This document shows, piece after piece, positions 54,935 to 63,345 of a stretch of 64,000 nucleotides of DNA. Made by a program: the position numbers and the translations under genes. Under the pieces are notes generated by a model. It saw only the letters and a program-made list of their open reading frames with translations, searched no databases and was not told where the DNA came from. Position 1 is the stretch's first letter; the number at the start of each line of letters is the position of its first letter. This DNA comes from Pelotomaculum schinkii (GTDB lineage: Bacteria; Bacillota; Desulfotomaculia; Desulfotomaculales; Pelotomaculaceae). The stretch is from contig NZ_QFGA01000001.1 of NCBI RefSeq assembly GCF_004369205.1, positions 2,232,001-2,296,000 on the forward strand, read 5' to 3'.

Positions 54935-55373
54935 TTATGCAATGTTTTCCTCTGTGTTTTCTATGACCGGCTCCACGCTGTCCATCACGCCCACATCGCG
55001 ATAGACAATACGGATGCTCTGCTCTGCGGTGCGGGAGTATTTTTCACCGCGTTCCCCAACCTCGATGCGGCTAATGAACAGCCTTAAAATTTCCGGCGTC
55101 AGCTCGCGGATTTCCGTATACCGCTTGGCCTTTTCAATGAAGGCTTCCACATTGGAGCACTAAAGTCTTTCCACAGTCGGCGCAGTACACCAGTCCCGAG
55201 AACATATTCGGCTCGTCCATTTGCTTCGGCATCCGCTTTTTGTGCTTGCGGACGTCCTGCACAATGTCCCACAGCTCCTGCGAAATGAGCGGCTCATGAG
55301 TATTCTCCACCAGAATCTGCTCCAACTCCGGGTGCCGGATGAGCTTTTTGTTCTTGAATGGTCTTTTCGACAT
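54935..55373 (-). pseudogene. Remnant of a large serine recombinase (TnpX/DUF4368 type)
   Basis: Two minus-strand pieces remain. One has the recombinase middle region and half of a zinc ribbon (HPELEQILVENTHEPLISQELWDIVQ, GLVYCADCGKTL); the other is the DUF4368 C-terminal tail (FIEKAKRYTEIRELTPEILRLFISRIEVGE). They are in different frames and the catalytic N-terminal domain and much of the middle are gone. It marks a decayed Tn4451-like or related element. Confidence 0.8.
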
Positions 55374-55420
55374 TCTTGAAACCGCTTTTCGGAATAATTC
55401 AAAAAATACTCAGAATATGG

Positions 55421-55467
55421 TTGACAACTGTAACCTATTGGAATACAATAGGGTTACAATAGTAACC
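55421..55467 (+). promoter_or_regulatory. Promoter with overlapping BlaI-type operator dyads
   Basis: TTGACA at 55421, 17 bases, then TACAAT at 55444. The -35/-10 spacer and start site contain TGTAACC...GGGTTACA and GGTTAC-N4-GTAACC dyads, resembling the TACA/TGTA operators of BlaI/MecI regulators. This points to autorepression by the gene that follows. Confidence 0.75.
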
Positions 55468-55482
55468 TATATTGAGGTGAGT

Positions 55483-55869
55483 ATGATGGCGGAAAAGAAT
55501 GAAATAAACTTATCGAGCAGTGAATGGGTGATCATGGAGTGCCTTTGGGATAAGGCTCCCCTGACGGTAACACAAATTGCAAAGGCCATGGAACGCGAAA
55601 CCGGCTGGGCTAAGAGTACAACCAAAACTCTTATCAGCCGCATGGAGACAAAGGGATATCTGCACTATGAAGAAGGCGGCAAGGCTCGGCGGTATTACCC
55701 TACCGTTGAGCGCTCGGAAGTAATCCTGGCGGAAACCGAGAGCTTTCTCAGTCGGCTTTATAACGGCAGTTTGGGTATGATGGTGAACACGCTCGCTCAC
55801 CAAAATAATCTTTCTCAGAGAGAAATCAAAGAGCTACGGGCAATTCTTGATAAGATGGAAGGGGTGTAA
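55483..55869 (+). CDS. BlaI/MecI-family repressor
   Basis: 128 residues from the ATG at 55483, which has GAGGTGAG upstream. The winged helix SSSEWVIMECLWDKAPLTVTQIAKAMERETGWAKSTTKTLISRMETKGYLHYEE and the C-terminal dimerisation helices are typical. It should repress its own operon until the co-encoded metallopeptidase sensor cleaves it. Confidence 0.92.
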   Translation: MMAEKNEINLSSSEWVIMECLWDKAPLTVTQIAKAMERETGWAKSTTKTLISRMETKGYLHYEEGGKARRYYPTVERSEVILAETESFLSRLYNGSLGMMVNTLAHQNNLSQREIKELRAILDKMEGV

Positions 55870-55873
55870 TAAA

Positions 55874-58540
55874 ATGCTTGAAACCATTATTACTTCTTCC
55901 GTATTAATAGCGATTCTTATCCTGTTGCGCTATTTCTTCAAAGGGAAAATCAATTTACGGCTGCAATATGCCCTATGGTTGTTGGTTGCTGTCAGGCTGC
56001 TTATACCTTTTTCCGTATTTAATAGCCCGTTTAGTGTATTGAATATCGCCCCAATAAGCAGCCAGACGGAACGAATTGAAAGCCCTGCCGTGTTGACGCT
56101 GCCCGAATCCGCCAGCCTGACTGACGGTAACATGAATGAGGGAATAACGGGTACTGCGAATGATTCAGTACCACCCCGTTATTTCGTGCAAAATGATTCG
56201 ACTAGCGCTAATATTATCTCGCACCAAAAAGCTTCGTTGAAAGATATCTTACATAATGTATGGCTCATTGGAGCTATTGCCGTGGGGCTTTGGTTTATAC
56301 TGCAAAACATATGGTTCTATACGAGGTTGAGAAAAACACGGGAAACTGCGGAAATACCGAACAGTCGGCTTCCGGTATACCTGTCCCGCTATGTTAAATC
56401 ACCTTGTCTGTTCGGTTTCCGTCCGGCAATATATATTCATCCCGATAGTCTGACTGACGACGAAGTTCTGAAATACATTTTGGCGCATGAAGAAACGCAC
56501 TACCGGCATGGCGACCATCTTTGGTCTTACCTGCGCTGCGTTTGCCTTGCGCTTCATTGGTTCAATCCTCTCATATGGTGGGCGGCCGTGCTCTCCCGAA
56601 GGGACTGTGAAATCGCCTGCGACGAAGGTACTTTAAAGCGTATCGGTGATGAGCATCGCAAGGCCTACGGCAATACGCTGATCAATATGATTGAACACCG
56701 GGCAAAACCATCCGATCTGCTCTGCAGCGCCACTACGATGACATCGGGTAAATCGGGAATCAAAGAACGGATAACGATGATTGCAAAAAAACCGAAAATG
56801 CTGTTGCCGACGCTACTTGTCATGATTCTCATTTTGGCCGCTGCCGTGGGATGCACATTTACGGGAGCCAACGGGAACTCCGCGAAAGATGTGGCCCTGT
56901 ATGAACGTGCCGGAATGACCATCGCCATACCGAATGAGTATGAAGACCAATTGCTCATTGATCCGGTTGAATACAATGATGAAACCACACTTATACGCGT
57001 ATATCAGAAATCGACTTATGAAAAATATGAAGGGATGGGATTCCTTTTCAGCATTGTCCGTTACACCGAAGCTCAGCATGAGCAGTTTTTGAGCTCTGAT
57101 GGCAGCGGACAGATCTTCTTCGCGAAGGATGAAACGTCATATTATGGGTTTTTCTTTGCGACCGATGTGCAGGCTCCGGACGACTATGAGGCGTTTTCCA
57201 AGCTTTTCTCAGCCGTCGGCGATTACGTCAAGAGCGATATGATAACTCGAAACGGACTGACCCCTTACAGCGACGACGAATTCTTCAACAGAAACTATAC
57301 CTACGACAGCGGGCATATTTTCCTCAGTTACTACCCTTACTACGCATATAACGGCAGTAAGGAAGAAGTATGGACGCTAATCCTCTCCCAGCCTGTGAAA
57401 CAGGGGGATACCGGCATATGGTGCGTGGAGCGCTGGAAGGATCAAAACGGCAATATCTATACATATTTCCCTGATGAGAACGGAACGCCTTCCACAAAAT
57501 ACTATGCCGAACGGCAGGCTGAATGCGATTCAGGCAGCGATATGTCCTGGCTTGATCCGAAGCAGGTGGCGCTTGCGTTTGTTAAGAGAGTATTTGACCA
57601 TGCCCCGGCGACTTTGGACAGTCTTTTGATATCCGACAATCCTGCTTCGCCAGCCGATTTATTTGCCGCGTCCACAGGAAATATACGCGACTATATGCCT
57701 GATCTGCTGGCAGGCAACGACGTCAGCGGCTACGACCTGTTGCCTTGTCTGGAGAGCTTTACGCATAGCACATGGTTAGAGCTGGATGAAGCTTACGGGC
57801 GAGATTGGTGGAATCCGCTGTGGGTTGCTCTGCGCGACGCAGCGATCAGCGATAGGCCGGCCGACAGCGACGATCAATCTCTGCGTGACTATTATATAGG
57901 CAAAGCTTATCTTGTATCCGACGGCGCCTATGCCGAGGGCTTAGCCGATATCGTGCTGCTGCAGTGGGACAATAACAGCGTCTTGTATAGCGCCTGTCTG
58001 AACGGACGTTTTTCCGCGGAGGAGGCGACCTCTCTGCGACGCTCTCTGACTTATTCAATCAGCTACGACGAGAGCACGTTCGGCCTGTTTATACCCGGCA
58101 GCGAGCGCAGCATATATCTTAACGCATATCCGGTCGATTTCCCGTTCGGCTGCGACCTTACTGAGAAAAGCCGGGAGACTCACCGGGCCGAGAGCTTCGG
58201 ACAGGTCACGGTAGTGAAGAGCGACGGCCTGCAGGTAACGTACCTGAACCCCGCCGAGGGCGTGTATACTGTGATCACCCTTCGCGCAGACAAGGAATAC
58301 TATACCGCGGCAGGCGTCACGATTGGCGATAATGAAGAATTCCTTTTGGCACACTGGCCCGATAAACTCAAAAAGCTGGACGGGATCAGCTACGACGACG
58401 AGGCTTGGTTTGGCAGCGGATATGATCATGCCTATGCCTATACGCCGCAAGAAAGCACCATAAGTGTGGTATACCTCATAAAGGACGGCATGGTTTCCGG
58501 TATAGAAATCATAAACGGCTTGGACGGAGCTATGTATTAA
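55874..58540 (+). CDS. BlaR1/MecR1-type M56 metallopeptidase with a large unrecognised C-terminal domain
   Basis: 888 residues from the ATG at 55874 (GGAAGGGGTG upstream). Residues 1-320 are the BlaR1 membrane protease: helices, RLQYALWLLVAVRLLIPFSV, zinc site AHEETHYRHGD and CEIACDEGTLKRIG. A further helix ends near AAAVGCTF. The remaining roughly 550 residues are extracytoplasmic and rich in Tyr, Asp and Ser. They do not show the SxxK/SxN motifs of a penicillin-binding sensor, so the signal is probably not a beta-lactam. It pairs with the repressor four bases upstream. Confidence 0.85.
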   Translation: MLETIITSSVLIAILILLRYFFKGKINLRLQYALWLLVAVRLLIPFSVFNSPFSVLNIAPISSQTERIESPAVLTLPESASLTDGNMNEGITGTANDSVPPRYFVQNDSTSANIISHQKASLKDILHNVWLIGAIAVGLWFILQNIWFYTRLRKTRETAEIPNSRLPVYLSRYVKSPCLFGFRPAIYIHPDSLTDDEVLKYILAHEETHYRHGDHLWSYLRCVCLALHWFNPLIWWAAVLSRRDCEIACDEGTLKRIGDEHRKAYGNTLINMIEHRAKPSDLLCSATTMTSGKSGIKERITMIAKKPKMLLPTLLVMILILAAAVGCTFTGANGNSAKDVALYERAGMTIAIPNEYEDQLLIDPVEYNDETTLIRVYQKSTYEKYEGMGFLFSIVRYTEAQHEQFLSSDGSGQIFFAKDETSYYGFFFATDVQAPDDYEAFSKLFSAVGDYVKSDMITRNGLTPYSDDEFFNRNYTYDSGHIFLSYYPYYAYNGSKEEVWTLILSQPVKQGDTGIWCVERWKDQNGNIYTYFPDENGTPSTKYYAERQAECDSGSDMSWLDPKQVALAFVKRVFDHAPATLDSLLISDNPASPADLFAASTGNIRDYMPDLLAGNDVSGYDLLPCLESFTHSTWLELDEAYGRDWWNPLWVALRDAAISDRPADSDDQSLRDYYIGKAYLVSDGAYAEGLADIVLLQWDNNSVLYSACLNGRFSAEEATSLRRSLTYSISYDESTFGLFIPGSERSIYLNAYPVDFPFGCDLTEKSRETHRAESFGQVTVVKSDGLQVTYLNPAEGVYTVITLRADKEYYTAAGVTIGDNEEFLLAHWPDKLKKLDGISYDDEAWFGSGYDHAYAYTPQESTISVVYLIKDGMVSGIEIINGLDGAMY

Positions 58541-58625
58541 CATAAATTGTTATTTGCATTAGAATTTGTGAATATTCGTGACGTTCACTGAGGTGACAAT
58601 ACCTTTAGAAACAATAACTTAAAGA

Positions 58626-58668
58626 AATCAGACATCTACCCACATAATTGTGAATGGATGTCTGATTT
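58626..58668 (+). terminator. Intrinsic terminator of the BlaI/BlaR1 operon
   Basis: AATCAGACATC / GATGTCTGATT stem followed by TTCTTGTT, about 85 bases after the stop. Confidence 0.75.
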
Positions 58669-58780
58669 TCTTGTTGCCCCGTACCGGTTACCCCCTCGGT
58701 TCAGTAGTTGACCTGTGGGTGATAACTCTTCTATTTACTGGTCAAAATGGACTTGCATCTATTTCAACCTAAAATTCTGG

Positions 58781-58854
58781 TGCGCCCGGAGAGACTCGAA
58801 CTCCCGACACGCGGTTTAGGAAACCGCTGCTCTATCCACCTGAGCTACGGGCGC
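58781..58854 (-). tRNA. tRNA-Arg (anticodon CCT)
   Basis: 74 bases on the minus strand: acceptor GCGCCCG / CGGGCGC, D arm GCTCAGGTGGATAGAGC, anticodon loop TTCCTAA and T loop GTTCGAGTC. CCA is not encoded. Reads codon AGG. Confidence 0.93.
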
Positions 58855-59167
58855 ATGCGTAGCAATAAGTATTCTACAACCCCCAAGTTCGTTTGTCAAG
58901 GTTTAAAAGGTTTACAATTCTAAACAAACTTCTCCTCTCCCCATACCTAACAGCTTCTGTACACCTTCAAAAAAGGATCTTTTCTTTGTGAGTAGGCTAT
59001 ATCTGTCAAACATTAGCATATGCATCGATATCCTACCTGTTTGTGTCGAAGCAAGTTGAAATTTATGGAAAATTTATAAATTACAATTAAAGGAATTGCA
59101 TTGATTTTATTGAAATATTTTGTATAAGCAATTGATATTTTAAGACATAAAAGATCTGGGGTTAATA
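58855..59167. other. Intergenic region with a possible promoter for the agr locus
   Basis: No gene seen. TTGATT, 16 bases, TATAAG at about 59103-59130 on the plus strand could be a promoter for the membrane-protein/agrBD operon. The region is AT-rich. Confidence 0.4.
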
Positions 59168-59629
59168 ATGTTTAATTTTGTATTGTTTCTTATGCAAGGC
59201 ATTCCCGAGAGCATAGGATTAGCCGCGCTGAGCCTGGCGTTGACCGGTATCCCGTTGCGCTGGGGGCGTGTCCTGGCAATAGGAATTGTTATGACTCTAA
59301 TAATCTATCTGATCAGATTACTTCCCGTTACTTTTGGTTTGCACACAGTCGCTGCAATACTGCTGTATATATCGTTCATCATCAAGATTACCAACGTACC
59401 GGCAACAAGGGTTTTTATCGCTGTCTTTACCAGCTTCGCTATCCTGATTGCACTTGAAGTGGCAATCTTTGAAGCATTTCTGTTCTTTAGCAACATGGAG
59501 CCGGAGGAGGTCATTTCAAATAAACTACTATGGTTAGGACTGGGGATGCCTCAAGCTTTCATATTGATATTTCTTGCCATTGTTGCTGCAAGATTAAAAC
59601 GGCCTGCAGGCGCCGTATTCAAGCAGTGA
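59168..59629 (+). CDS. Membrane protein, first of a tandem paralogous pair upstream of agrB
   Basis: 153 residues with four or five hydrophobic helices. It aligns along its whole length with the next gene (LFLMQGIPESIGLAALSLAL, RWGRVLAIG, IRLLPVTFGLH, GMPQAFIL). I do not recognise the family. The conserved QGIPE start and RLLP-x-xFGLH loop are the best hooks for a search. Its place before AgrB suggests a part in peptide signalling, unproven. Confidence 0.7.
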   Translation: MFNFVLFLMQGIPESIGLAALSLALTGIPLRWGRVLAIGIVMTLIIYLIRLLPVTFGLHTVAAILLYISFIIKITNVPATRVFIAVFTSFAILIALEVAIFEAFLFFSNMEPEEVISNKLLWLGLGMPQAFILIFLAIVAARLKRPAGAVFKQ

Positions 59630-59828
59630 ACAGCCTTATACCGGTTTGGCCGGAAATAAAGACAGCGACCAAAAAGCGTCCCAGCCTTCAGTCTAATCTA
59701 ATCATTTGCCGTTGGAAATTAATTCATAAATATTCAACAAAGCCATCCGCTGGGATATGGGAAATCAATTAAAACATCGTATCTTGTAGAAATGATCGAA
59801 ATTACAAAATAAAGATATGAGGGCAAAA

Positions 59829-60290
59829 ATGATAGAATTCGGACTATTTCTTCTGCAGGGCATCCCTGAAATGGTAGGGTTAATAGGGCTAAGCCTTGCA
59901 CTGGCCGGTGTTACACAGCGCTGGGGCCGCATCCTGTTAGCGGGAACACTGCTGGCAATATTAATTTTCTTAATCAGATTACTTCCCATCCCCTTCGGTT
60001 TACATTCAGTGGCAGGACTGTTGCTGCTGACGGTGTTAATCATCAAAACCACCAGCGTCCCCCCTTCACGGGTTTTTGTAGCGGTTTTTGCCAGCTTCGC
60101 CATCATAATTCTGCTTGAACTAGCAGTCCACGAAATGTTCTTCTTCATAACGAAGCTAAATCCGTATGAGGTTATCGCCAACTACCCTCTTTGGATAAAA
60201 CTGGGGATGCCTCAGGCTATCCTGTTGGTTGTATTCGCTTTACTTGTTGCAAGGTTTAAACAGCCTCAAAAGGGGGCCTGGAAGGTTTGA
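59829..60290 (+). CDS. Membrane protein, second of the tandem paralogous pair
   Basis: 153 residues from the ATG at 59829, chosen because GAGGG lies five bases before it and the protein then aligns end to end with its paralogue. Four or five helices, with RWGRILLAG, IRLLPIPFGLH, VPPSRVFVAVFASFA and LGMPQAILL conserved. Its stop overlaps the TTG of agrB (TTGA), so the two are translationally coupled. Confidence 0.7.
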   Translation: MIEFGLFLLQGIPEMVGLIGLSLALAGVTQRWGRILLAGTLLAILIFLIRLLPIPFGLHSVAGLLLLTVLIIKTTSVPPSRVFVAVFASFAIIILLELAVHEMFFFITKLNPYEVIANYPLWIKLGMPQAILLVVFALLVARFKQPQKGAWKV

Positions 60291-60919
60291 GCCGCCTTGT
60301 TTTCAGCCGAAGCTGGGCCAGGTATCTGGCCGCCAATTCCAACCTGTCCCAGGATAAGGAACTTATCATTACTTACGCTATTGAGGTGCTGGTGATTAAC
60401 CTGATTAATGTGCTCCTCACCCTGCTCCTGGGCCTGTTGCTGGGCGTCCTGCCCGTCACCGCCGCATGTCTGGCCTCGGTGTTCCTGTTCAGGCATACAG
60501 CCGGAGGAGCCCATTCAAAATCACCCTGGCGCTGCGCAATGATAACGGTTATAATATTCCCCACCCTAGCGTTTATAGCCACTTTTTTATCACAGTTTAA
60601 CCGTATTTCTGGCGATGTTATATCAGCCCTGGCTGTTTTAACCGGATTTACGGCAGTCCTAGTTCTGGCCCCGGTGGACAACCCGGCAGCGCCAATTATC
60701 TCACCGGTCAGAAAAAAACGGTTAAAGATCCTGTCCCTTATGGCGGTCATTCTTATCGCTACAGCCATAATAATCCTCGGGCAGGTCGGCTGGGAACAGG
60801 CTCTCGCGTTTCGTAACGGCCTCTCTTTAAGCCTCCTGTGGATAAGCTTCGTCCTCAGTAAAACTGGACACCGTGCCATTAATTTTATAGATGGAATTAA
60901 CTTAACACAAAGGAGGTGA
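60287..60919 (+). CDS. agrB: AgrB-like peptide processing membrane protease
   Basis: 210 residues with five or six helices. The AgrB catalytic motif RHTAGGAHSKSPWRC gives His76 and Cys83, spaced as in Staphylococcus aureus AgrB (His77/Cys84). The TTG start overlaps the upstream stop. The last codons contain AAAGGAGG, the ribosome site of agrD, whose start lies five bases after the stop. It cuts the precursor and forms the thiolactone ring. Confidence 0.92.
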   Translation: MSRLVFSRSWARYLAANSNLSQDKELIITYAIEVLVINLINVLLTLLLGLLLGVLPVTAACLASVFLFRHTAGGAHSKSPWRCAMITVIIFPTLAFIATFLSQFNRISGDVISALAVLTGFTAVLVLAPVDNPAAPIISPVRKKRLKILSLMAVILIATAIIILGQVGWEQALAFRNGLSLSLLWISFVLSKTGHRAINFIDGINLTQRR

Positions 60920-60924
60920 AAAAG

Positions 60925-61056
60925 TTGAAAAAGTATAAGACCCTTTTCTTTCTAGCCGCTGTTTCGCTATTAACCTTTCTGGCAAGTATAGCTTCAGCAT
61001 CTGCTTGCATAGGATCCCATTACCAGCCTGAAGTACCAAAATCACTAAGAAAATAG
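60925..61056 (+). CDS. agrD: AgrD-like cyclic lactone autoinducer precursor
   Basis: A 43-residue peptide, easily missed because of its length. It has an amphipathic start (MKKYKTLFFLAAV), a hydrophobic middle, and the tail ASACIGSHYQPEVPKSLRK with a single Cys and the YQPEVPKSLRK end typical of the clostridial cyclic-lactone family. The TTG start is eight bases after AGGAGG; a GTG at 60916 in the same frame lies inside that site and is unlikely. The mature ring should begin at or just before the Cys. Confidence 0.9.
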   Translation: MKKYKTLFFLAAVSLLTFLASIASASACIGSHYQPEVPKSLRK

Positions 61057-61062
61057 TGTTCC

Positions 61063-61085
61063 GGGAGGTGAAATTCTCACCTCCC
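61063..61085 (+). terminator. Hairpin between agrD and the histidine kinase gene
   Basis: GGGAGGTGA / TCACCTCCC with a five-base loop, seven bases after the agrD stop. It lacks a long T run, so it may be a partial terminator or an RNA-stabilising stem that lets agrBD exceed kinase expression. Confidence 0.65.
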
Positions 61086-61122
61086 TTCCTCATCAAATGC
61101 TGCTCTGTGGGAGGGACCTGTC

Positions 61123-62766
61123 TTGAAAGCTGATAACGAAATACTGGACAGACAAAAAGAACTATATGAGCATACGACAGTTACCCACATGTTGTGTATC
61201 ATCATATTGGCTTCAGCACTGACATTATGCAAAAAATTTTATATACCCGGTGATATTTACCCTATAATCAACATACGTTCTTTTGCGCTTGTCTCCTTTT
61301 TAGGGCTTGGGATTATTTTTTTATTAAGGTCGAAAGACACCATACCATTTGAGACCAATAAGTCCTTATCACCTATAGAATTAGGCTACGTAAGTTTCCC
61401 GTTGCTAATCTCATCCATAACCCTTATTATGGCCGGCGACAGCCTTGACTCGATAGAAATCATTCTCCTCTTACCGGTACTGATCACGGCCTCGATTATG
61501 GGCAAAAGGGCCGGGCTGGTTATGGCTACGGTTTGCGCCTTGTTGCTTTTTGTGTATGAGCTCAGCATGAAAAAACCTTTACAGGTGATCTTCGAGTCCA
61601 ACCTCATAGTAATCAGTATGATGTACGTGGTAGGCTGGTTTGTCGGCGGTATCATCAACATCGAATCCGAACACCGGGCCCATTTAAAAACCAGTTTGAA
61701 TTCTGTTAAAGAAGAGATAGCCAGGCGGGAAAAGGTTGAAGAACAACTCCGCAAATTAACCGGCGCCGTTGAACAAGGTCCCAGTATCGTGGTGATAACC
61801 GACACCTTCGGGAATATTGAATATGTGAACAAGAAATTCACTCAGGTAACGGGATACCTGCTCGAAGAAACAATTGGAAGAAATATCAGCGAAATCGCAG
61901 GGACTCCATCAGAGCCGTCCCAGCAAAACTGGGGCAATGTTGATTCATGCCGGGAATGGCATGAAGAGCTGGAAAACAGAAAGAAAAACGGGGATTATTA
62001 TTGGGAGTCGGTCTCGATATGCCCTTTTCGCAACCATGAAGGCATCATCACTCACTTCCTTCGAATTTCCGAGGACATAACCGAGTCCAAGCGCATGGAG
62101 AAGGAAATGGCGCGCTTAGACCGCCTCAACCTGGTAGGTGAAATGGCGGCGGGGCTGGGCCATGAAATCCGCAACCCGATGACCTCGGTGCGAGGCTTTC
62201 TGCAGTTGCTCTCAGGCAAGAAAGACTGTTTACTCTACAAGGGTTATTTCGATTTGATGATTGACGAGCTGGACCGGGCCAACTCAATCATCACTGAATA
62301 TCTCACCATGGCCAAGGACAAGGCCATTGTCTTAGAATTAAAAAGCCTGAACTCAATAATAGCAGCTATGCAGCCACTATTATCCTCTGACGCGACTAAA
62401 TCTGAAAAAACAGTTTACTTTGATCTGCAGGAGATGCCGGCCCTGCTGCTGGACGAAAAAGAGATTAGGCAGCTCATATTGAATCTCGTCCGCAACGGTC
62501 TTGAAGCGATGCGCCCCGGCGGAGCCCTGACCATTAAAACATACCTTGAGGACACAGAGGCCGTGCTTTCCGTGCAGGACCAGGGAAGCGGCATCAGCCC
62601 GGAAGTATTGGAGAAAATAGGAACGCCCTTTTTCACCACCAAGGACACCGGGACAGGTTTGGGGCTGGCGGTATGTTACAGCATTGCAGCCCGGCACAAC
62701 GCCTGCTTAAAAGTTGCAACCAGCCCTGGTGGAACAACTTTTTATGTCAGGTTTAAGCTTATATAA
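61123..62766 (+). CDS. PAS-domain histidine kinase, likely AgrC-like sensor with a sporulation-kinase-type H-box
   Basis: 547 residues from a TTG with GGGAGGGA upstream. Five or six membrane helices fill residues 20-185, a PAS domain spans about 205-325 (VVITDTFGNIEYVNKKFTQVTGY), His347 lies in LGHEIRNPMTSVRGFLQLL, and the ATPase has NLVRNGLEA and TKDTGTGLGLAV. The H-box resembles B. subtilis sporulation kinases more than HPK10-type AgrC. No response regulator lies beside it. Its place after agrBD suggests that it senses the peptide. Confidence 0.85.
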   Translation: MKADNEILDRQKELYEHTTVTHMLCIIILASALTLCKKFYIPGDIYPIINIRSFALVSFLGLGIIFLLRSKDTIPFETNKSLSPIELGYVSFPLLISSITLIMAGDSLDSIEIILLLPVLITASIMGKRAGLVMATVCALLLFVYELSMKKPLQVIFESNLIVISMMYVVGWFVGGIINIESEHRAHLKTSLNSVKEEIARREKVEEQLRKLTGAVEQGPSIVVITDTFGNIEYVNKKFTQVTGYLLEETIGRNISEIAGTPSEPSQQNWGNVDSCREWHEELENRKKNGDYYWESVSICPFRNHEGIITHFLRISEDITESKRMEKEMARLDRLNLVGEMAAGLGHEIRNPMTSVRGFLQLLSGKKDCLLYKGYFDLMIDELDRANSIITEYLTMAKDKAIVLELKSLNSIIAAMQPLLSSDATKSEKTVYFDLQEMPALLLDEKEIRQLILNLVRNGLEAMRPGGALTIKTYLEDTEAVLSVQDQGSGISPEVLEKIGTPFFTTKDTGTGLGLAVCYSIAARHNACLKVATSPGGTTFYVRFKLI

Positions 62767-62922
62767 TATTTCTATAAAAATCGCTTGCCTTCACTTTTAT
62801 GGCGCGCCCGTAAAGATTCTCCCTCTACTTCTGCCTTAGTCAAATACAACCCCAGACCCCACGCCTGGATACACCAGCAAGCACTAAAACAAGCAGCTTA
62901 ACCTTAAAAGAACTATTATGAA

Positions 62923-63345
62923 TTATTTTATTTCTAAATGATATAGACTTTTAATGTATTCCACAACTTCATCCTCATCTTTCAAATATTGATCTATACA
63001 CGATGAAAGGTGAAATGAACTATTAATATTTTCATTAATGCCAAGCCCGATTACAGGCTTCTGTTTTAAATAACAATATGTCAGTTCAAAAATAGTTCCT
63101 GGTGATTCCAATATGTGATCTGTATTAACTATGATTATATCTGATTCGCTTAAGTAGAATACGTTTTGTTTAAGATTAGACAAATTAGTATACAACATGT
63201 TTTGTTTAAGATTTGTGCAAGCATTAAAACATTTAACATCCAGCATATTCAACTTCTCGGTTAAGCTTATTCTCCACTTTAAACACTCATTAAATTTATT
63301 ATTTCTTATATACCAACTAATTGCACCCGCAAGATATACTAACAT
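62923..63345 (-). CDS. Nucleoside 2-deoxyribosyltransferase-like protein
   Basis: 140 residues. YLAGAIS at the start, SDIIIVNTDHILESPGTIFELTYCYLKQKPVIGLG in the second half and a short helical end follow the NDT-like fold, in which the Glu of SPGT-x-x-E is catalytic. AAGGAG precedes the ATG. Base composition is much more AT-rich than the agr genes, and a repeated LKQN segment fills the middle. Probably acquired. Substrate unknown. Confidence 0.65.
   Translation of the reverse strand: MLVYLAGAISWYIRNNKFNECLKWRISLTEKLNMLDVKCFNACTNLKQNMLYTNLSNLKQNVFYLSESDIIIVNTDHILESPGTIFELTYCYLKQKPVIGLGINENINSSFHLSSCIDQYLKDEDEVVEYIKSLYHLEIK

Follow-up and report, generated by a model that had tools for sequence, protein, structure and literature searches.

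The window, a 64,000-nucleotide stretch of the Pelotomaculum schinkii genome, carries an Agr-type quorum-sensing operon in which, on a somewhat better than even estimate for the whole chain to the phosphorelay, a sporulation-type kinase replaces the AgrC/AgrA output. The operon may belong to a wider type of 'Agr without AgrA', widespread but patchy, in which a split AgrC N-terminal protein and a membrane sensor module would serve an output that has repeatedly been exchanged, a cyclic-di-GMP enzyme for a Spo0F kinase or the reverse; for this broader reading we put the chances at even.

All genes of the operon lie on the forward strand. It begins with two genes for small membrane proteins of one family, here called MP, assigned by family alignments: MP1 (59168–59629, 153 aa), relatives of which are fused N-terminally to AgrC-like kinases, and a second copy, MP2 (59817–60290, 157 aa), which is 54% identical to MP1. 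These are followed by agrB (60287–60919), encoding the peptide-processing membrane protease (PF04647, 133.7 bits against a cut-off of 23), and agrD (60916–61056), encoding the autoinducer precursor. The latter was identified by TIGR04223 (40.9 bits against a cut-off of 19) and by a survey of the ring motif, and scores 17.5 bits with Pfam PF05931, below the cut-off of 22.7. Overlaps of 4 bp join MP2 to agrB and agrB to agrD, and 66 bp separate agrD from the gene for an orphan histidine kinase (61123–62766, 547 aa, TTG start).

The kinase starts with a membrane module of 208 aa (61123–61746), which it has in common with GGDEF-HD-GYP proteins and which is weakly similar to DUF4118. The PAS domain (61783–62085; PF13426, PAS_9, 64.4 bits, aa 221–321), the HisKA domain (62137–62319; PF00512, 47.2 bits, aa 339–399) with H-box HEIRNPMTSVRGFLQLL and residues TSGFQL, and the HATPase_c catalytic domain (62452–62760; PF02518, 78 bits, aa 444–546) each score above the Pfam cut-off. 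Neither the GHKL/HATPase_c_5 nor the SPOB_a domain of AgrC was found in the kinase by Pfam scan, no receiver domain was detected up to 5 kb from the HisKA domain, and the locus has no gene for a LytTR AgrA. The reading frame with its PAS domain and H-box is exactly as described in the initial annotation, and the statement made there that no regulator follows the kinase is borne out over those 5 kb.

The gap between agrD and the kinase gene contains a 9-bp hairpin (GGGAGGTGA/TCACCTCCC, 61063–61085, forward strand) predicted by RNA folding. Comparable hairpins between agrD and the receptor gene are present at the window, L007, L010, L152 and other loci, with stems that vary (e.g., GAGGTGG/CCACCTC, GGAGAGG/CCTCTCC); a helix run of at least 8 occurs in 85 of 99 loci, compared with 42% of dinucleotide shuffles, and one of at least 10 in 67 of 99, compared with 19%. 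No intrinsic terminator was detected after agrD by a consensus scan, although the hairpin folds clearly, and the sole known RNA family found in 58500–63200 is a tRNA (58781–58854). The hairpin is a possible attenuator or processing site. Downstream of the kinase gene, on the opposite strand, is an ORF (62923–63345) with weak Pfam similarity to nucleoside deoxyribosyltransferases. Elsewhere in the window, a BlaI/BlaR1-like pair (55339–58540) consists of a penicillinase-repressor family gene followed by the gene for an 897-aa M56 peptidase protein, the long C-terminal extension of which has no Pfam match.

The host genome (4.44 Mb) carries five agrB loci, each with at least one MP gene (in the labels used here, G000 is the host genome, other G-numbers are sampled genomes and L-numbers are fetched loci). 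Two of them, L008 and L009, combine a GHKL kinase with a LytTR regulator; the L008 kinase is of the AgrC GHKL type (HATPase_c_5, SPOB_a), as is that of L009, except that its SPOB_a match falls just below the cut-off. The agr loci of the window and of L007 each have a PAS kinase, and at L010 a protein with the window-type N-terminal membrane module continues into GGDEF and HD-GYP domains. The module of the window kinase is 33% identical to that of L007 (E 2e-33) and 26% identical to that of L010 (E 1e-12), and for the kinase as a whole, the nearest relatives with a name are from Pelotomaculum and one Desulfotomaculaceae bacterium. The contrast with classical agr systems drawn in the initial annotation is therefore valid for the window locus, which is without GHKL AgrC and LytTR AgrA, but not for the genome, which has two such loci. 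That reading had also missed the probable split AgrC receptor, the four further agr loci, and the fusion of the module to GGDEF-HD-GYP enzymes. Behind the classical agr locus of L009 with its LytTR regulator (L009:1711–5022; G000 C2) are genes for PqqD-radical SAM-SPASM and B12-binding radical SAM proteins, which may form a quorum-controlled cluster for peptide modification.

When the host's family (25 genomes) was searched with a profile built from three sequences of the membrane module, 22 genomes matched, of which G014 entered solely through a weak match to a 700-aa kinase (L183) that was itself not counted; a later profile gave 21 of 25. Both L183 and L184 (E 3e-5), which are 700-aa kinases with a LytTR-like regulator alongside, were rejected as members of the module family. 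With a 32-sequence profile, matches were found in 75 of 113 genomes of the host's order (a search by class covered the same set) and in 86 of 398 genomes sampled from the phylum, the weakest of which may be unrelated; strong matches (E 1e-12 or better) were present in 62 of the 398. AgrB accompanies the sensor in 58 of these 62 genomes, compared with 108 of the 336 others (Fisher p 1e-20, a guide only, because the genomes are related). There was no match to the sensor module on a plasmid.

Gene context was examined in 140 fetched loci, in which receiver, AgrB, AgrD and MP labels come from small home-made profiles with possible single misses. Outside the host's family, 60 of the 75 order-level stretches are included, the omitted 15 being nearly all among the weakest, together with 40 phylum stretches that are mainly stronger ones (those omitted comprise some equally strong, such as G296, G398 and G318, and weak ones). 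Dropping the duplicate stretches L180 and L222 left 143 sensor ORFs, and 132 of these had at least 1500 bp of upstream sequence. The genome context in relatives, proposed as a check in the initial annotation, supports the linkage: 118 of the 132 sensor ORFs have agrB or agrD on their own strand no more than 3 kb upstream (41/49 kinases, 73/78 GGDEF-HD-GYP proteins, 3/4 receiver-hybrid kinases and one cut ORF of one), and the recurrence of the arrangement across the order and the phylum sample argues against chance adjacency of the kinase and the agr genes. An MP gene is found within the same distance upstream of 117 of the 132, and in 110 of 126 rows, counted with duplicates, less than 150 bp separate agrD from the receptor gene. 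For 14 of the 132 there is no agr gene within 3 kb upstream, among them the family kinases L153, L154 and L160; at L265 and L297, which also belong to the 14, the agr genes lie downstream. A same-strand regulator occurs near the kinase in only two of 55 kinase rows (L155, L273), both with another kinase alongside. At L155, L158, L161, L173 and L178, agrD adjoins the sensor kinase and no agrB was found within 3 kb upstream, so that these loci would need AgrB made elsewhere.

The part of the protein that follows the sensor module varies. Most of the fetched relatives outside the host's family carry, like L010, GGDEF and HD-GYP domains; both HD-GYP motifs are present in 80 of these 83 proteins, GG[DE]EF or SGDEF in 63 and GSDEF in eight. 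The L010 protein has GSDEF, and its cyclase may therefore be weak. In a tree of 140 modules, built by a quick method, the output must have changed at least 12 times between kinase (a category that includes the receiver hybrids) and GGDEF-HD-GYP, eight of these changes being forced by well-supported branches, whereas shuffled labels average 45; single placements are unsure because several branches are long. At locus L259 of D. acetoxidans (G058), the order MP-agrB-agrD is followed by a kinase with residues TTGFQF and then by a GGDEF-HD-GYP protein, the module of which is the sister of the L259 kinase module in the tree. L206, L265, L295 and L298 also combine a sensor kinase with a GGDEF-HD-GYP sensor protein, in varying order around agrBD. 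In other families of the phylum (L278, L283, L294, L296), the module occurs in receiver-bearing hybrid kinases, with agr genes upstream in three of four cases and MP in all four.

Identification of the sensor module itself as AgrC was rejected, there being no AgrC family among its matches and, instead, a weak resemblance to DUF4118, which 26 of 32 members show at E 0.01 or better. As the module shows no sequence relationship to MP or AgrB by hhalign, and as the function of DUF4118 is itself unknown, the cue that it senses may be a different one. Its AlphaFold2 model, built from four sequences, has six helices and is poor (mean pLDDT 66.3).

MP1 and MP2 are likely to be the split-off peptide-receptor half of AgrC, homologous to its N-terminal part, since MP occurs fused to AgrC-like kinases and the kinases of L008 and L009 have no match to that part. 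An MP profile matched 157 of the 398 phylum genomes (kinase-fused matches included), many of the matches lying in frames of 440–496 aa. From these, 20 loci were picked for an MP match within a long frame, and 21 of the 22 long MP-bearing ORFs consist of MP followed by an AgrC-like kinase; a LytTR regulator is present in 17 and agrB in 16 of the 20 loci. When seven fused ORFs were compared with the staphylococcal AgrC model, five aligned from model positions 12 to 38, one from 135 and one did not align, all of the matches being far under the cut-off of that model. The stand-alone MPs match it at E 1 or better in two of 49 cases (best 0.068), and the GHKL kinases of L008 and L009 only from model residue 131 or 136 onward. 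AgrC residues 134–430, with the last two membrane helices only, keep constitutive kinase activity (PMC3841183). Recognition of the peptide and activation are described as dependent on extracellular loops 1 and 2 (PMC10482373), which, by the helix count of PMC3841183, are within the first 133 residues. MP also stands immediately upstream of sensor genes that have no agrBD before them (L260, L283) and of second receptors (L295, L298), a placement that ties it to the receptor and not to AgrB alone.

The AlphaFold2 model of MP2 has five long helices and one short one (mean pLDDT 88.3). An origin of MP as a copy of the kinase sensor module or of AgrB was rejected by hhalign, with probabilities of 0.2 and 0.6%, respectively. 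Searches for a solved fold gave nothing usable, either by Foldseek (best E 1.2) or by VIA-align (best Z 5.3 over 119 residues at 5.1 Å, to MprF), and the missing match is no statement on novelty.

Phosphorelay kinases have been described as orphans with a PAS domain and a signature of six docking residues (PMC6136694). According to Table 1 of that paper, these residues are T[AVSG]GFQ[LI] in the kinases of B. subtilis (KinA TAGFQL, KinC TSGFQI) and NVSAQV or NISAQL in those of C. acetobutylicum. The PAS orphan kinases of D. acetoxidans have TTGFQ[LMF], and a phosphorelay of that species has been confirmed in vitro, the kinase used being Dtox_1918 with TTGFQL (PMC6136694). Counting from the histidine, by our own reading of the positions in Table 1, the docking residues are TSGFQL in the window kinase and TTGFQL in the L007 kinase. 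The TTGFQF of the L259 kinase is listed in that table for Dtox_3081 only, and the L229 kinase of D. acetoxidans has TTGFQL and a map position that fits Dtox_3426 by linear estimate; from residues and map position, we infer that the former is Dtox_3081 and the latter probably Dtox_3426.

The host genome has 33 HisKA kinases. The pattern T..[FL]Q is present in all 11 that have no separate neighbouring regulator and in none of the remaining 22. For ten of the 11, no receiver domain lies within 5 kb, and the ORF of L029 itself contains one; each of the other 22 has one no more than 2 kb away, which for L026 is the one inside the ORF of L029 (46 of 48 receiver matches were used, the remaining two being far from all HisKA matches). 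At L203:5557–7845 (G000 C3), a kinase with TAGFQL, a Spo0F-type sequence, and a receiver domain share one ORF that adjoins a short HisKA kinase. As 11 kinases of the genome have Spo0F-type residues, the window kinase is one of many possible relay inputs, and the residues alone do not single it out.

Candidates for all later steps of the relay are present in the host genome: Spo0A (TIGR02875, 419.6 bits), Spo0B (SPOB_a, 71.5 bits, immediately upstream of obg) and a receiver-only protein whose gene precedes that of a class II aldolase by 1.1 kb with one ORF in between, and which is a candidate for Spo0F because it was assigned by the aldolase-neighbourhood criterion of PMC6136694. A second receiver-only protein (L190 2176–2646; G000 C1:1032735) appears Spo0F-like by eye, with an undecisive model search, and the ORF beside it appears amidohydrolase-like, also by eye. 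The initial annotation had likened the window kinase to KinA–E, feeding Spo0F/Spo0A. Orphan status, the PAS domain, TSGFQL, the Spo0F, Spo0B and Spo0A candidates and the conserved agr linkage favour a kinase that feeds Spo0F. Direct phosphotransfer to Spo0A appears less likely, because the docking residues of the window kinase differ from those listed for the C. acetobutylicum kinases (PMC6136694).

The docking residues are largely maintained among the relatives. In 55 sensor kinases (hybrids excluded), they read T[TSV]GFQ. in 45, TTGYQY in four and TTGLQL in one; the others are VAGFQL, TIGMQL, NVTTQL, NLSAQI and one that was not read. The kinases of L159, L168 and L177 (428–446 aa) are too short for a PAS domain. 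Spo0B was searched for in 48 genomes, a set that omitted six module-bearing genomes of the host's family (G003, G005, G006, G012, G019, G023). A SPOB_a ORF of 167–244 aa is present, by eye, in all 35 of the searched genomes whose sensor kinases have T..[FYL]Q, one of these ORFs having an internal stop. No SPOB_a ORF of this size was found in G443 (NLSAQI) or G378 (VAGFQL), and G158 and G462 have one, yet their sensor kinases carry TIGMQL and NVTTQL; the agreement between residues and Spo0B is therefore good within the order and mixed outside it. The NLSAQI of the G443 module kinase (L300) is near the residues of the C. acetobutylicum orphan kinases, and that genome has no AgrB match.

The AgrD of the window has a predicted ring, CIGSH, followed by the tail YQPEVP. 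Across the loci, AgrD mostly conforms to a frame [C/S]-x4-Y-[Q/E]-P; the ring position holds C or S in 112 of 124 ORFs, Y follows the ring in 111 of the 115 matched, and the ring itself is hypervariable, with 104 distinct 5-mers among the 115 (duplicate stretches kept in these counts). The five rings of the host genome are all different (CIGSH, CGFGQ, CANMW, CWWIT and SWVGY). Such variable rings within a fixed frame would be expected of private signals.

A mechanism can be proposed from the observed gene content and order, conservation, docking residues, relay genes and fusion homology. AgrB, acting as is known for its family, would cut and cyclise AgrD to a five-residue thiolactone, with CIGSH as the predicted ring. 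Homology, fusion and gene pairing suggest that the peptide would be sensed outside the cell by MP1/MP2 together with the membrane module of the kinase, which would then set the activity of the PAS-HisKA-HATPase_c kinase. Docking residues, orphan status and the presence of the relay candidates point to a phosphate path from the kinase to Spo0F, Spo0B and finally Spo0A, by which population density would enter the sporulation phosphorelay. As the receptor module is fused to a GGDEF-HD-GYP enzyme in the sister loci, a like signal would there set cyclic-di-GMP.

Other explanations differ from this mechanism in what is sensed and by which protein. The kinase could feed Spo0F and its DUF4118-like module sense another cue (membrane state, redox or an ion), the agr genes being merely co-regulated. 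The DUF4118 resemblance and the lack of any AgrC family among the module matches are consistent with this, as are the module kinases without nearby agr genes (L153, L154, L160) and the PAS domain as an additional input; it is nevertheless unlikely, given that the module keeps the company of agrBD while its output changes, and that MP directly precedes L260 and L283, which have no upstream agrBD, and the second receptors of L295 and L298. We regard as equally unlikely that MP1 and MP2 are partners of AgrB in peptide maturation, export or self-immunity, leaving the kinase as sole receptor. The position of MP, within 3 kb upstream of nearly all sensor ORFs and usually just before agrB, would suit such a role, and no solved fold matched MP. 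Its occurrence at the N-terminus of an AgrC-like kinase in 21 of the 22 long ORFs, the alignment of five of seven fused ORFs to the AgrC model from positions 12 to 38, and its pairing with sensor genes that have no upstream agrBD argue instead for a receptor half.

The direction and the destination of the phosphate could also differ. Many HisKA kinases are bifunctional, and in a reversed circuit the peptide-bound kinase would act mainly as a Spo0F-P phosphatase and restrain sporulation when cells are crowded. This is improbable, and the least probable of the alternatives by a small step. Only slightly less doubtful is a peptide-controlled kinase with another stand-alone receiver as its partner, such as the Spo0F-like protein of L190 (2176–2646), and an output other than sporulation. 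A suitable second protein does exist in the genome, but the docking residues match those of kinases for which use of Spo0F has been shown or predicted (PMC6136694), and a Spo0B-sized SPOB_a ORF accompanies T..[FYL]Q sensor kinases in every one of the searched genomes that has them. Transfer from a peptide-controlled kinase to Spo0F is the reading preferred here.

The window operon resembles the AgrBDCA systems of staphylococci and clostridia in its AgrB and AgrD families, its variable five-residue ring and, probably, an AgrC-type N-terminal sequence in MP. It differs in that the receptor is apparently split off, the kinase is PAS-HisKA/HATPase_c and not GHKL, and there is no LytTR regulator in the locus. 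With KinA–KinE and the orphan kinases of D. acetoxidans, it shares orphan status, the PAS domain and docking residues of the same class (PMC6136694). Two of the six predicted PAS kinases of D. acetoxidans (Dtox_3081 and probably Dtox_3426) appear to be agr-linked members of the family; the available excerpts of PMC6136694 on these kinases mention neither an agr linkage nor a shared sensor module. The L010 protein and its relatives are like other membrane-bound GGDEF-HD-GYP enzymes in their domains and differ by the agr-linked module and the position behind agrBD.

In C. difficile, early sporulation is promoted by the Agr1 peptide, and the path from the peptide to Spo0A is described as unknown (PMC11210211). 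An agrA mutant of the same species under-expressed three genes for c-di-GMP phosphodiesterases (PMC3754575), an indirect link through gene expression, whereas operons of the window type encode candidate direct effectors. Among the papers that searches of an open-access library brought up, no title or opening abstract described an agr operon with a sporulation kinase or GGDEF-HD-GYP output, although an earlier description is possible, and none was found to describe an Agr-type peptide acting directly on cyclic-di-GMP.

We know of no identified signal for most sporulation kinases. The window locus would provide environmental anaerobes with a short route by which an extracellular peptide reaches the phosphorelay, and would assign a signal to two predicted sporulation kinases of D. 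acetoxidans. If the output is indeed exchanged behind one receptor module, an Agr-type peptide would gain a direct hold on cyclic-di-GMP, and at tandem loci such as that of D. acetoxidans, one peptide would set cyclic-di-GMP and the sporulation phosphorelay together. The unnamed family of membrane proteins of about 155 aa (MP), which the profile search located, kinase fusions included, in 157 of the 398 phylum genomes, would also be given a role. Together, the orphan kinase and the fusions of its module to second-messenger enzymes suggest that crowding is read into spore formation and lifestyle control, and, if true, quorum would be wired to second messenger and cell fate through a single protein.
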